Shown here: piece after piece, positions 5,122-46,145 of the stretch
Layout: the number at the start of each line of letters is the position of its first letter
Position numbering within the stretch: the first letter of the stretch is position 1
DNA from: a virus
DNA: 46,145 nucleotides
Virus record (IMG/VR): IMGVR_UViG_3300015264_000012
Coordinates: 1 to 46,145 of that record
Reading direction: 5' to 3' (one strand)
The notes under the pieces: generated by a model
What the model was told of the DNA's origin: nothing
The model's input: only the letters and a program-made list of their open reading frames with translations
Database searches by the model: none
Translations under genes and position numbers: made by a program

Positions 5122-5276
5122 AGAAAACACACTGGCCTTGGATTGGTCGTATAGCTCTTTGTGGTCGAATGGCTAAGAGTAGTAATAATAATAAACGTAT
5201 TGCTTGCATAACAAAAACCGGATGGGCTAAGGAATCCGACTATCCAACATGTAAGACTTGCCGTAAAAAACTATGA
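5118..5276 (+). CDS. Small Cys-containing zinc-binding-type protein, 52 aa
   Basis: A 52-residue frame opens with ATGA overlapping the upstream stop and closes with TGA overlapping the ATG of the ParB-like gene, so both junctions match the coupled style of the arm. The protein is basic and contains a His and Cys early (T-H-W; L-C-G-R) and a Y-P-T-C-K-T-C-R ending. That H/C...C..C pattern is seen in short phage zinc-binding proteins. The function is unknown. Confidence 0.65.
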   Translation: MKKTHWPWIGRIALCGRMAKSSNNNKRIACITKTGWAKESDYPTCKTCRKKL

Positions 5277-6481
5277 AAATACTAATAAACCAAATAGAGA
5301 TAGGTGACAGGCAGCGAGTAGAGTTAGGTGACATGACTGGCCTAGTCGATTCTTTCAAAGAGCTTGGCCAGATAGTTCCTATTACCGTTTATAGACCCAT
5401 CAATAGCAGTCATGTTGGTTATGTGCTTGACACTGGTCGTCGAAGGCTAGAAGCCGCCAAGCTTCTAAACTGGACTGAAATAGAAGCTCATTATGCCGGA
5501 GAACTTACTCCTTTAGAAAAGGAGGAACGCGAACTAGATGAAGACATCCGTCGCAAAGACCGAACCTGGTGGGAGAAAGCCATAGCGATGAAACGTCTAT
5601 GGCATCTTAAGAAGGTCTCGTCTGAGGACGGATGGACAACTAAGAAGATGTCAGCCCTTGTTGAGGTATCGGATTGGTCGGTCTCTGCCCTGCTTCGACT
5701 CGCTGACTATCCCGTCGAAGAACTAAAAAAGTATCCTGCCGCGAACCCCGCGTACAAGGAACTAATCCTACTACCACAAGAACGAGCCGCCAATGCTGAG
5801 ATAGAGCGACGGCGACAACTAGCAGCACCCATTATCGCTAATGGTGCTGTTAGCGTTGCTAACCCAACGGAGCCAGAGCAAGCTCTCGAAAAGGTTGTCA
5901 TCAAGCTCCAATACGAACCAAACGACTTCAAAATGAACAAGCTCGACGATGCCTCGGTTGACCTCGCCATAGCGAACTACCTTGACACCGACGACATCCC
6001 CGTTTTGGATAGAGTCCTGTCGCCTACCGGCTACGCTGTTGTCTTCCTTCGACCAATGCAATGGGACGAAGCAGGATTCTTCTTTCGTGACCACGGGTTC
6101 AACGTCATGCCATTTCCTTTGGTGTGGAACCAGTTAGTCTCAGCCAAAGACACTCGCTGGCCTTTCCTCGAAACATGGCGGGCAGGCTTAGTCGTCACCA
6201 AGAACAAAGAAATCAAGGCTATCAACCCTGCCACGGCTGTCATGCAAGCCATGGTTAATGATGGCAACATACCGTTTGGCGTAGTCCAACATGTCTGTAA
6301 AGCCCTTATACTGCAAGACAAGCCCGTCGTCATTATCAACGGTGTAATGCCTCATGAGGTTGCTCAGTGTGGCAATATTCCGGTGTGGTTTGAGGCTGAC
6401 GAACTTAAAAGGGTGGAAAAGATTAAAGCTCTTACCGAGTACTATCAGGATAACGTGCCCGGCGTGGAGGTCGTCATTTGA
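5273..6481 (+). CDS. ParB-like nuclease/N-terminal domain fused to a degenerate DNA methyltransferase, 402 aa
   Basis: Residues 1-90 form a ParB/Srx-type domain: an N-terminal I-x-x-G-D-R-Q-R segment, then V-L-D-T-G-R-R-R-L-E-A (51-61), the conserved phosphate-binding motif. A helical middle (about 95-150) resembles the ParB helix-turn-helix. The C-terminal half resembles N6/N4 DNA methyltransferases in outline (S-V-D-L-A-I-A-N-Y-L-D; V-L-S-P-T-G-Y-A-V-V-F-L), but the catalytic D-P-P-Y is replaced by A-N-Y-L. The methyltransferase half is thus probably inactive and may serve in recognition. An active methyltransferase with intact D-P-P-Y follows at once, so the two may work as a pair. Confidence 0.7.
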   Translation: MKILINQIEIGDRQRVELGDMTGLVDSFKELGQIVPITVYRPINSSHVGYVLDTGRRRLEAAKLLNWTEIEAHYAGELTPLEKEERELDEDIRRKDRTWWEKAIAMKRLWHLKKVSSEDGWTTKKMSALVEVSDWSVSALLRLADYPVEELKKYPAANPAYKELILLPQERAANAEIERRRQLAAPIIANGAVSVANPTEPEQALEKVVIKLQYEPNDFKMNKLDDASVDLAIANYLDTDDIPVLDRVLSPTGYAVVFLRPMQWDEAGFFFRDHGFNVMPFPLVWNQLVSAKDTRWPFLETWRAGLVVTKNKEIKAINPATAVMQAMVNDGNIPFGVVQHVCKALILQDKPVVIINGVMPHEVAQCGNIPVWFEADELKRVEKIKALTEYYQDNVPGVEVVI

Positions 6482-7071: not shown

Positions 7072-7391
7072 CTATCTACCGAGTTATGACCCCAACTTTC
7101 ACCGCCGCGCTTATCGTAAGTGGTGACACTGTGTTACAAGCCGGCCCAGTTTTATCATGGACTGTCGGCGAACGCTTCATCATGGTTCGCAACCACTGCA
7201 AGGCTAAGGGCTGGCAGATACAACCTTTAATACAAGACAATCCTCCCGCGTGGTTCGAGCTTGACAACATCGCCTACGAGCTACACTGGCATGAGGGCAA
7301 TATAACTCGTATCACTGAACATAAGCGTGACGGCGAATGCCGTGACCTAAGATATAGCGAACTACCTGATATACTCAAGAACCTACTATGA
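7068..7391 (+). CDS. Hypothetical protein, 107 aa
   Basis: Unrecognised protein with several tryptophans and an alpha/beta appearance, no cysteine motif and no membrane segment. It sits between the methyltransferase and the polymerase genes, with 4-bp overlaps at both ends, so it is part of the same expression unit. Confidence 0.7.
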   Translation: MTIYRVMTPTFTAALIVSGDTVLQAGPVLSWTVGERFIMVRNHCKAKGWQIQPLIQDNPPAWFELDNIAYELHWHEGNITRITEHKRDGECRDLRYSELPDILKNLL

Positions 7392-8416
7392 TTGTCCCGA
7401 ACCGTTTTCCAACGATTCAATCCCAACGAAGAATAGCATTAATTGGAGAGTCACCCGGTAGCGACGAAGTAAAACAAGGTGAACCTTTTGTCGGCATGTC
7501 CGGCAGGTTCCTCGCCTCTTTACTATCCAAAGCCGGAGTCAGCCGCGAGTCGTGCTTCCTCGGCAACGTATCACAACACCAACCACCCGGCAACGACATC
7601 TCACTCTTTAAATGGGATGGCCCGGAAATCAGGGCCGGGTTATATCAACTAAAACAAGACCTTGAAATATGGAAACCAAACATCGTAGTGCTACTAGGAA
7701 ACGTCCCGCTAAAGGCAGCAAAGGATGTGACTACTCTCCACAAATTAAAGCCGCAATCGTATCGCTTCAAAAATACTGCATGGCGTGGGAGTCTGTTCTT
7801 AGCAAACGAAGAAAGTCCGGTAAGCGGCTTTAAATGCCTATCAACCTACCACCCCGCTTACGCCCTTCGAGATTATGAAGTCACTCCACTACTATACTTT
7901 GACCTCGTTCGAGCAGTCGAAGAATCCCTTACTTCAACACTCGTTCTTCCAAAACGAGAGTTTGCTATTGACCTATCTGCTAGTGAAATAATCTTTCGCT
8001 TACAGAATATTAGAGAACTTAAATTAAAAGTGGCAATAGATATTGAAGGAGGCATCGACTCTATGTCGTGCATATCATTTGCAACTTCTCCATACAGGGC
8101 TTTCATAGTTCCTTTCTTCTTTAAAAACGGTACTAGGTGTTTTACTGAAATAGAACAAGTCGCTATATGGAGAGAGCTTATATTAACACTGGAAGACCCT
8201 AACGTCTATAAGATTTTACAGAACGGCTTATATGATAGGTTTGTTCTTCACTATTCTTATCGCATAAGAGTGCGAGGAGTAACCGACGACACCATGGTCA
8301 AGCATTGGGAGTTATTTTGTGAATTAAAAAAGTCGCTTGCTGTTCAAGCGAGTATTTACACGAGAGAACCATATTGGAAACACGAAGGAAAGGCTGAAGA
8401 ATGGCAAGGGAAATAA
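7388..8416 (+). CDS. Split DNA polymerase, N-terminal piece: UDG-like domain plus start of 3'-5' exonuclease
   Basis: Residues 15-180 form a family-4-like uracil-DNA glycosylase domain: G-E-S-P-G (20-24), G-E-P-F-V-G (31-36), N-V-S-Q-H-Q-P-P-G-N and Y-H-P-A-Y (about 153). A DnaQ-like exonuclease begins near residue 210 with Exo I (A-I-D-I-E-G) and Exo II (N279, D283 in N-G-L-Y-D-R-F). The coding sequence then runs into the HNH insertion and stops after the foreign residues G-K. UDG-like domains at the front of family A polymerases are known from phage SPO1. The rest of the exonuclease and the polymerase resume at about 8783 in the same phase. The piece alone lacks Exo III. Confidence 0.85.
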   Translation: MIVPNRFPTIQSQRRIALIGESPGSDEVKQGEPFVGMSGRFLASLLSKAGVSRESCFLGNVSQHQPPGNDISLFKWDGPEIRAGLYQLKQDLEIWKPNIVVLLGNVPLKAAKDVTTLHKLKPQSYRFKNTAWRGSLFLANEESPVSGFKCLSTYHPAYALRDYEVTPLLYFDLVRAVEESLTSTLVLPKREFAIDLSASEIIFRLQNIRELKLKVAIDIEGGIDSMSCISFATSPYRAFIVPFFFKNGTRCFTEIEQVAIWRELILTLEDPNVYKILQNGLYDRFVLHYSYRIRVRGVTDDTMVKHWELFCELKKSLAVQASIYTREPYWKHEGKAEEWQGK

Positions 8417-8796
8417 TACTAACTCAAGGATTCGTAGCTATCGTTGATGACGAAGATTACGAGAAAATTAACTCGGTTAACTGGTGCTACTCACATGGAT
8501 ACGCCTATCGAAAGAAGGATGGACGCACTTGTTACATGCATAAGGAGATTCTTAATGCAAGTATGGTTGACCATATAAACGGTAATAAACTTGACAATAG
8601 AAAGGCCAATCTAAGGTTAACTGATAAATCTTTAAACGCCCTTAACAGAAATGTAAGCGGGTTTACTATATTACCAACAGGTAAATTTAGGGCACAACTT
8701 AAAATTAGAGGTAACTATATAAACAAAGTATTCAACACCCAAGCCGATGCTGTTTCATGGCGCGAACAAAAGAAAAAGGAATATGGAGCAGCGTGA
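8401..8796 (+). CDS. HNH homing endonuclease (HNH_3/AP2-like), 131 aa
   Basis: The core is H-K-E-I-L-N then V-D-H-I-N-G-N-K-L-D-N-R-K-A-N-L-R, the HNH_3 signature of phage homing endonucleases. It is followed by G-K-F-R-A-Q-L and a V-F-N-T-Q-A-D-A segment that resembles the AP2-like DNA-binding tail of this group. Its ATG uses bases of the upstream polymerase piece and its stop lies within the downstream piece, so the inserted segment is essentially the ORF itself. No room remains for a separate group I ribozyme. It probably spreads by cutting uninterrupted polymerase genes and being copied in by repair. Confidence 0.85.
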   Translation: MAREIILTQGFVAIVDDEDYEKINSVNWCYSHGYAYRKKDGRTCYMHKEILNASMVDHINGNKLDNRKANLRLTDKSLNALNRNVSGFTILPTGKFRAQLKIRGNYINKVFNTQADAVSWREQKKKEYGAA

Positions 8797-10423
8797 CCGA
8801 ACATTCTTCGAGTACTGCTGTAAGGACTCTTGCGTCACTTACGAAATTAGTGAGCACCTTGATAATAAGTTGAAGGGTGCCTCGTTAGAACATTATAGGC
8901 TGAACATAGCCTTACTAAATCCCCTGCTTGATATGGAGATGCGTGGCATACGCTATGACATCGAGGGTGCAGCATCGCGGCGAGCACTTTTACAGACTAA
9001 GATGTATGAAGCACAAGCTAGGTTGAATGCTTTAACAGGTTATTGCTTTGACTGGAAAAGCCTAGCCGCCATTCGACAGCACGCTACCGAGCTAATGAGC
9101 AAGAAGAAAGGTGGCATCTTAAAACCCTATATCGAGGCGGCTGAAAGGCTTAACAATCTTGTAACAATGCCCAACCCTTCGCTCGCCTCCATCGGCGAAA
9201 TCGAAGACCTTCTCGATAAGTCGCTCAATGTCGGCTCGACCTCGTTCCGCGACTATCTCTACACCACCCTACAACTCCCACCCCAATACAACGAAGATGA
9301 AAAGAAAAACCAAGTCCTTACCGCTGACTACGAAGCCCTCCTTAAACTATCTAAGCATCTTAGTGAACAAAAAGAAAGTATTGCGTATCAAGTTATCCAA
9401 CTCGCTATCCAGATTCGTGCTCTCCAAACGAGGCAAGGAATGCTTGCTATCGCCGCAGATAGTGACGGTAGAATACGTTGTGGGTACAACATTGTTGGCT
9501 CGGAAACGGGTAGAATTACCTGCTACACTAGTCCCACAGGAAGTGGATACAACTTACAGACGATACCAAACTATGACCACGTGGATGACGCGCCAGGTGG
9601 AGTACTAGGTGACCGTGACCTGTTCTTAGCGGACGAAGGATACTGGTTATTCCAATGCGATTTATCTGGAGCTGACGGCTGGACAGTTGCCGCATACTCC
9701 GCCATGCTTGGTGACCGCACGTTACTAGATGACTTACAAGCCGGTTTAAAGCCTGCAAAAATCCTTGCGCTAAAGCTTCGAGACTATAAGGTTAATTTCG
9801 ATGAGCGAGAATCCCTTAAGGCGGTCATGCATATTATCAAGAAAGAAGACTGGGATTATTTTGCGTGTAAGCGTGTGTATCATGGCGCCGACTATCTTGA
9901 AGGAGACATCACCATTAGCCGTAATATTTTAAAAGATAGCGAAGGCAAACTATTCATGCCTCCAAAAGAATGCAAGCCGTTAAAGGAGTTCTTCTTTCAG
10001 CGATACCGAGGGGTTAAGCTATACCATAACTGGATAGCTACTCAGCTTCGTAGCAGGGCTGTGCCTAGCCTTACCGCCGCTAGTGGGCAAACCCGACGAT
10101 TCTTCGACCGCGCTGATAATATTCTTCCCAAGGCTGTTGCTTTTGAGCCGCAAGCCGTAACAACTTATGCAACCAATCTCGCTATGTATAACCTATGGAC
10201 TGATAAAGAAAACCGCAGCGGAACAAAACTGACAATTCAACCGCTTCATACTATACATGATGCGTTAATGGGGCAGTTTCCCAAAGAATACACTAAATGG
10301 GCTGTAAAGCGTATTAAAGGGTATTTTAACAACACTATCCATATTGCAGGCCAGCCCATAGTTATCCCCTACGAGGGCAACTATGGCTCCTCATGGGGTA
10401 ACTTAAAAGAAGGAACAATCTAA
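8783..10423 (+). CDS. Split DNA polymerase, C-terminal piece: Exo III and family A polymerase domain
   Basis: Just after the HNH stop the protein reads E-Y-C-C-K-D-S-C-V-T-Y-E-I, the Exo III motif (Y-x3-D) missing from the upstream piece. Polymerase motifs follow: motif A F-Q-C-D-L-S-G-A-D (Asp293), motif B C-K-R-V-Y-H-G-A-D-Y (Lys363) and motif C I-H-D-A (His492, Asp493). I chose ATG 8783 because the sequence becomes polymerase-like there; ATG 8747 would add twelve residues that are antiphase to the endonuclease gene. With the upstream piece (342 aa) the total is close to an intact UDG-type polymerase. If functional, the exonuclease site must be assembled from two chains. Confidence 0.85.
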   Translation: MEQRDRTFFEYCCKDSCVTYEISEHLDNKLKGASLEHYRLNIALLNPLLDMEMRGIRYDIEGAASRRALLQTKMYEAQARLNALTGYCFDWKSLAAIRQHATELMSKKKGGILKPYIEAAERLNNLVTMPNPSLASIGEIEDLLDKSLNVGSTSFRDYLYTTLQLPPQYNEDEKKNQVLTADYEALLKLSKHLSEQKESIAYQVIQLAIQIRALQTRQGMLAIAADSDGRIRCGYNIVGSETGRITCYTSPTGSGYNLQTIPNYDHVDDAPGGVLGDRDLFLADEGYWLFQCDLSGADGWTVAAYSAMLGDRTLLDDLQAGLKPAKILALKLRDYKVNFDERESLKAVMHIIKKEDWDYFACKRVYHGADYLEGDITISRNILKDSEGKLFMPPKECKPLKEFFFQRYRGVKLYHNWIATQLRSRAVPSLTAASGQTRRFFDRADNILPKAVAFEPQAVTTYATNLAMYNLWTDKENRSGTKLTIQPLHTIHDALMGQFPKEYTKWAVKRIKGYFNNTIHIAGQPIVIPYEGNYGSSWGNLKEGTI

Positions 10424-45888: not shown

Positions 45889-46145
45889 ACCTTCCACCAC
45901 TTCGTCTAATAGATGGTTGTATTATAATCGATAACTCTTCGTTAGAGTTGCTACAAACCTGCCCACGTAGCTTTGAGTACTCCTATTTAAGGCAGCGTGT
46001 CAAGTCATCTGATAGACCAGCCCTCAACTTTGGTGGCGCACTTCATCTCGCCCTCGCCTATCGCTATAACCAATGTGGCTCTAATGCTGTCACCGACGAA
46101 CAAGAACAGGCTATTAACGAAGTCCTTAGCCAGCACTTTCTTTCT
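45885..46145 (+). CDS. Cas4/RecB-like nuclease, N-terminal part (continues at 1)
   Basis: Starts with TTG in a TTGA overlap with the MazG stop. The opening L-E-L-L-Q-T-C-P-R-S-F-E-Y matches the usual start of Cas4/AddB-type nucleases, with Cys26 as the first iron-sulphur ligand, followed by F-G-G-A-L-H. The last 77 bases of this segment are the terminal repeat, so the gene continues in phase at position 3. Confidence 0.85.
   Translation, partial: MNLPPLRLIDGCIIIDNSSLELLQTCPRSFEYSYLRQRVKSSDRPALNFGGALHLALAYRYNQCGSNAVTDEQEQAINEVLSQHFLS
46069..46145. repeat. Terminal direct repeat, right copy
   Basis: Identical to positions 1-77; see the left copy for interpretation. Confidence 0.95.

Follow-up and report, generated by a model that had tools for sequence, protein, structure and literature searches.

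The question raised by this locus is whether a viral DNA polymerase gene was split by an HNH endonuclease gene, and whether its two halves reassemble or the virus pays with its proofreading activity. The window, i.e., the whole stretch of DNA that was analysed, is a virus record of IMG/VR with a length of 46,145 bases. It carries a direct terminal repeat of 77 bp, corresponding to a circular genome length of about 46.07 kb, and given this repeat the window is a complete phage genome, circular or terminally redundant. The relevant features are the following:

1-77, second copy 46069-46145, no strand: direct terminal repeat, exact match, 77 bp
7388..8416, plus strand: N-terminal polymerase piece (piece 1), family-4-like uracil-DNA glycosylase (UDG) domain and first part of the 3'-5' exonuclease, 342 aa
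8401..8796, plus strand: HNH endonuclease ORF, 131 aa, Pfam HNH_3, phrog_99
8414..8416, plus strand: first of nine in-phase stops between the polymerase pieces
8747..8782, plus strand: 12-codon upstream extension of the piece 3 frame, inside the HNH ORF; counted from 8747, piece 3 has 558 aa
8783..10423, plus strand: C-terminal polymerase piece (piece 3), Exo III and thumb, fingers and palm of family A, 546 aa

The three ORFs at 7388-10423 overlap in series. The HNH ORF shares 16 nt with piece 1 and 14 nt with piece 3 (counted from the ATG at 8783), and, therefore, it fills the gap, as the initial annotation had claimed. The further claim that the polymerase pieces are in the same phase but separated by stops also held: they share one frame, nine in-phase stops lie between 8414 and 8720, and the HNH ORF is in a different frame. 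The sequence AAGGA is found immediately 5' of ATG 8783. In contrast, no ribosome-binding site was seen before ATG 8747, and the extension from 8747 to 8782 has no counterpart in relatives. ATG 8783 is thus the more probable start of piece 3, ATG 8747 is merely the first ATG of the frame, and the extension is unlikely to belong to the translated polymerase. A hairpin of 13 bp is predicted at 8747-8794 and spans the start of piece 3, but it is not significant against shuffled sequences (z -1.5). It could conceivably mask the start codon until the HNH ORF is translated, a suggestion that remains tentative, because the hairpin is no better than shuffles.

Piece 1 is 50-62% identical to the N-terminal half of intact relatives. 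It matches Pfam UDG (6e-20) and, narrowly short of the cutoff of that model, Pfam DNA_pol_A_exo1 (7e-5); NCBIfam UDG family 4 matches at 5e-23, below the curated cutoff. Piece 1 also carries the motifs Exo I (D,E) and Exo II (N,D). Piece 3 begins a few residues upstream of Exo III (YCCKD) and matches Pfam DNA_pol_A (8e-14). Its polymerase domain has the equivalents of D621, K691 and H820-D821 of the intact relative L007, i.e., the motif A D, the motif B K and the motif C D. The placement of UDG, Exo I and Exo II upstream and of Exo III downstream, proposed from sequence alone, is thus confirmed by the ORFs, Pfam and the motif residues. No second polymerase gene was found in the window genome, and an intact copy elsewhere in this genome is excluded. 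Two genes 5' of the polymerase, at 5273-6481 of the window, a ParB-like protein is encoded, and a ParB-methyltransferase-like protein is found in the equivalent place in several relatives (L004, L076, L098).

An intact gene was searched for in relatives, as had been proposed initially, and it was found. The gene is uninterrupted in L002, L003, L004, L006 and L007, which are 52-62% identical to the window, and also in the more distant L101, L103, L104 and L105. The intact relatives read ..YTDEPYYKxERKSxDDxTFFEYCCKDS.. through the break site. Because the close relatives keep the gene intact through exactly this point, a chance arrangement is rejected. In the tree the window is nested within the intact group with a support of 100/100, and, therefore, the break is derived. 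A split form without HNH was not found among the close relatives of the window.

The break maps to residues 328-330, approximately, of L007, in a surface loop that connects the Exo II region to the Exo III helix. The fold was examined on intact L007 and not on the window protein. The AlphaFold model of L007 (pLDDT 84.6, pTM 0.79) is predicted to be Klenow-like, with Foldseek TM scores (target) of about 0.7-0.8 to Klenow and Bst Pol I, and in this model the break lies in a lower-confidence stretch that is preceded by a short helix (323-327) and followed by the long Exo III helix (331-355). The claim of a cut in the exonuclease active site held, therefore, only in part. A loop is interrupted and not a motif, but the active-site residues do fall on two chains, four of the six on chain 1 and two on chain 2.

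The inserted ORF matches Pfam HNH_3 above the cutoff (3.7e-6) and the HNH family phrog_99 (4e-21). HNH_3 is its sole domain, and a Hint (intein) domain is absent. Its C-terminal part resembles an AP2-type DNA-binding segment, judged by eye only. The GC content is 37% in the insert versus 43% and 46% in the flanks. Two close relatives of the HNH ORF at other loci, L012 and L013, are free-standing and overlap another gene at its end. No match to Rfam intron families was obtained across the window region, even at the relaxed threshold of E<=5, and nothing relevant was detected at the relaxed threshold in L073, L076, L008, L009 and L092 either. In the search for a target-site duplication only a 6-nt repeat was found. 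By its layout, the insert is likely a free-standing homing endonuclease, with cleavage and copying of an empty allele being inferred. Four observations together support the proposal that the HNH endonuclease made the split: the gene is intact in relatives, the window is nested among them in the tree, the insert is low in GC, and an intron signature is missing. The role of the HNH as the cause of the break remains an inference.

The relatives of the window HNH ORF led to L073 and L076, whose UDG polymerase is likewise broken in this loop and has an HNH gene and a DUF1937 gene lying between its halves. The polymerases of these two loci led on to L096-L098 and L107-L121, and some of these further members also carry HNH and/or DUF1937 between the halves. 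In a wider survey the best 80 of 174 IMG/VR contigs were kept, and both halves were present in 78 of them (66 distinct). In all 78 the polymerase is split at this same loop, ahead of Exo III. Nothing is inserted in 19 of the 66 distinct contigs, in which the halves overlap by 1 or 4 nt, while in the remaining ones gaps of 3 to 1702 bp separate the halves. The gaps contain HNH_3 proteins (L134, L151, L152, L167, L201), endonuclease VII-like proteins (L172, L188, L195), a weak LAGLIDADG match below the curated cutoff (L186) or unrelated small genes. In L117, the 3.3 kb between the halves are filled by a ribonucleotide reductase gene (L117:2010-3770; barrel domain, 1e-106) and other ORFs.

The split polymerases form a monophyletic clade (100/100) that does not include the window, and a single origin for the splits of the window and the clade is rejected (p-AU 6e-6). 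Thus, the same loop has been broken independently at least twice. The recurrence and the fixation of the break are shown, and they go beyond what the initial annotation could know. Chain 1 in the largest subgroup typically ends with ..TIKRD[A/D/E/N], and chain 2 in the clade starts with M[RK]II[RK]T; the window has neither this tail nor this leader. In L159 the halves are in frame and separated by only one TAG and one more codon. A model of the read-through protein predicts a Klenow-like fold (pLDDT 85.3, pTM 0.79), in which the break is disordered at 361-372 and the leader forms a strand at 374-377. This is a single-chain model and no proof of chain association. Relatives of the split polymerase were not found in a scan of bacterial genomes, and the split clade is unreported in the open-access literature that was searched (subscription papers were not covered). 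An apparent intein, seen by eye, interrupts motif B of the C-terminal half of the split polymerase of L098 (L098:3762-6188; GHG/CLTADHEVLTPNG ... GN/SNYLGQP), for which Pfam shows solely an interrupted DNA_pol_A domain.

The six DEDDy residues are kept in every aligned split member; in the window, D, E, N and D are on piece 1 and Y and D on piece 3. The examined polymerase residues are likewise kept in all aligned split members, with the exception of the motif B Y, which is F in L076. Pairwise dN/dS values in the split clade are about 0.07-0.19 in the Exo I-II part. The first 60 codons of chain 2, which comprise the Exo III segment, have values of mostly 0.04-0.16, close to those of the polymerase part (0.02-0.12); several of the dS values are saturated. 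The main argument for reassembly is, therefore, that purifying selection acts on both halves of a site that is useful only when they are joined. Of the two outcomes that had been envisaged for the split, reassembly or a cost in proofreading, the evidence favours reassembly, based on the conserved residues and the purifying selection in the old clade and on the plaque-forming phage Kuura (PMC9959647, see below). However, the conservation seen in the old clade is no proof of a working enzyme after the recent split in the window. At 35 otherwise invariant positions of its Exo I-II part, the window has five private changes, versus 1-2 at 31-33 positions in relatives. This excess is not significant (p = 0.22), so that faster evolution of the exonuclease in the window was not established, and it gives at most a faint hint of relaxed or compensating change.

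Within the old clade, endonuclease genes are gained and lost at the junction. The C-terminal halves of L113 and L115 are 97.6% identical, and an HNH ORF of 177 aa is present at the end of chain 1 in L113, but not in L115. When L113:4120-5030 was compared with L115:1990-2430, a divergence of 25-31% was observed in the final 157 bp that precede the insertion, whereas the background on this side varies (1-22% per 100 bp). This peak at the insertion would fit homing with co-conversion. L154 has only the 5' part of the HNH gene that is whole in L167, and the polymerase halves of the two are 85% identical; here the endonuclease decays, while the split persists. Also in L096 (L096:40-2161) an HNH ORF was observed, which starts with the chain 2 leader (MKILDTLTLEKDMAEGNLNVSE), and the C-terminal half behind it has its own copy of the leader. 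The HNH gene of L096 entered the chain 2 leader in a second round of insertion, with leader duplication. Several endonuclease families have clearly arrived at the existing junction in the old clade.

Several known systems resemble the window in part. Split genes of phages have been reviewed (PMC2988022), namely nrdA (Aeh1, mobE), gene 60 (T4, mobA) and gene 43 (phages 25 and 44RR). Gene 43 of the Aeromonas phages 25 and 44RR (43A/43B) is also a phage replicative polymerase in two cistrons, and an endonuclease is associated with it in phage 25; the 43A and 43B proteins of this phage co-purify with polymerase activity (Petrov, Ratnayaka and Karam 2010, as reviewed in PMC2988022). It differs in being a family B polymerase with a seg endonuclease, whereas the window has a family A polymerase with UDG, an HNH gene and a break between Exo II and Exo III. 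The split of nrdA in Aeh1 also affects a critical region of an essential gene and is due to a free-standing homing endonuclease, as inferred for the window, and the two NrdA chains form an active enzyme (PMC2988022), but this enzyme is a ribonucleotide reductase and not a polymerase. The MEP401/MEP402 polymerase (PMC10580990) is of family A and encoded by two ORFs with a small ORF between them, and this split is common to most group I relatives. In contrast to the window, the break is within the polymerase domain, the inserted ORF is of unknown family, and no UDG was reported. I-HmuI of SPO1 and I-BasI of Bastille are HNH homing endonucleases in phage DNA polymerase genes. They reside inside group I introns that splice out, and no intron was found in the window; I-BasI is cited in PMC10580990.

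A counterpart in an isolate is that of the Caulobacter phage Kuura (OQ067476, PMC9959647), which is a cultured, plaque-forming phage. The break in its UDG polymerase (Kuura_029 and Kuura_026) falls in the same loop, but two small ORFs without recognised domain and no HNH lie between the halves, and it is a member of the old split clade. The N-terminal half is annotated as hypothetical protein and the other half as DNA polymerase, and in the sections of PMC9959647 that bear on it only one DNA polymerase is named for Kuura. UDG polymerases that are split at other places were also observed. In the Vibrio phage VS-ABTNL-3 (L092:906-4040) the break is within the polymerase domain and an ORF of 184 aa of unknown family lies between the halves, and in MW202554 (L009:1294-3931) the split follows Exo III and a NrdR-like zinc-ribbon ORF is found in between.

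Four other explanations were weighed against a homing-endonuclease split with reassembly. The split could have abolished proofreading, so that piece 3 alone acts as an exonuclease-minus polymerase, while piece 1 is kept for its UDG or is decaying. The separation of the Exo III helix from the exonuclease sheet speaks for this, and so does the small surplus of private changes that the window shows in its Exo I-II part, which is not significant. Against it stand the six exonuclease residues, which are intact across both window pieces, and the purifying selection on both exonuclease halves in the old clade, and, therefore, a loss of proofreading is considered to be unlikely. Alternatively, the HNH ORF could reside in a self-splicing intron or an intein, and splicing would yield one full polymerase, as for I-HmuI and I-BasI. 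Group I introns that encode HNH proteins do occur in phage DNA polymerase genes, and the whole insert folds slightly better than shuffled sequences (z -2.2). However, the ORF occupies the entire gap and leaves no room for a group I intron core outside of it, no Rfam match was obtained for the window or the five related loci, and 19 relatives have overlapping halves with nothing inserted. A group I or group II intron was thus rejected. An intein was rejected as well, based on the missing Hint domain, the frame that differs from that of the polymerase and the in-phase stops. Splicing of either kind is all but excluded.

It could also be argued that the polymerase gene was in two pieces beforehand, owing to some other event, and that the HNH gene invaded it later. 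Different endonucleases do reach an existing junction in the old clade, and a similar ambiguity has been stated for gene 43 of phage 25 (PMC2988022). Yet there is no HNH-less split among the close relatives of the window, and the HNH ORF fits the gap exactly, which makes a prior split improbable. The last alternative is an assembly artefact, or a rare variant in a population with an intact polymerase. It is favoured only by the fact that the window is one metagenomic contig, without reads in which a mixed population could be examined. In contrast, the genome is complete with a terminal repeat, the HNH ORF is open and intact, and similar arrangements are present in many other contigs and in one isolate, and thus this alternative is very unlikely.

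The preferred explanation remains that a homing endonuclease split the gene and that the halves reassemble as a two-chain polymerase with a shared proofreading site. It is regarded as likely, with a probability of roughly 0.8. A free-standing HNH homing endonuclease gene would have entered a UDG-fused family A polymerase gene in the loop just before the Exo III helix, and the insertion would have turned one gene into three overlapping cistrons. The ribosome may terminate piece 1, translate the HNH ORF and re-initiate at ATG 8783 for piece 3. The two chains would then fold and associate as one Klenow-like enzyme, in which the exonuclease site is assembled from D, E, N and D of chain 1 and Y and D of chain 2, and such breaks can become permanent. 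It is shown that the insertion is present and is recent relative to the intact relatives, that the residues are conserved, and that a lineage of independent origin has the same break in fixed form, with both exonuclease halves under selection. The translational coupling, the association of the chains and the exonuclease activity are inferred, and the claims are made without transcript, protein or activity data. A bolder reading, which we favour only by a narrow margin, is that a widespread phage lineage has an obligate two-subunit family A polymerase, whose proofreading site is shared between the chains and which arose when a homing endonuclease was inserted and the split became fixed afterwards. 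The TIKRD tail and the M[RK]II[RK]T leader, a beta-strand, would be an interface that evolved after the split, and the window would represent an independent first step.

Splits of essential phage genes by homing endonucleases were already known, but the cases are few. New are the UDG-fused family A type, a break located between Exo II and Exo III, its independent recurrence and the large fixed clade with or without a mobile gene. In one loop of one polymerase family at least two independent breaks and repeated invasion by several endonuclease families are seen, and one of the breaks is permanent in a large clade. The annotation of phage genomes is also concerned, as the hypothetical protein of Kuura exemplifies. 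The set of intact genes, freshly split genes with HNH, split genes with other inserts and seamlessly split genes makes the path from a selfish insertion to a stable two-subunit enzyme testable, and the readout would be a proofreading site that is present only if the chains reassemble.
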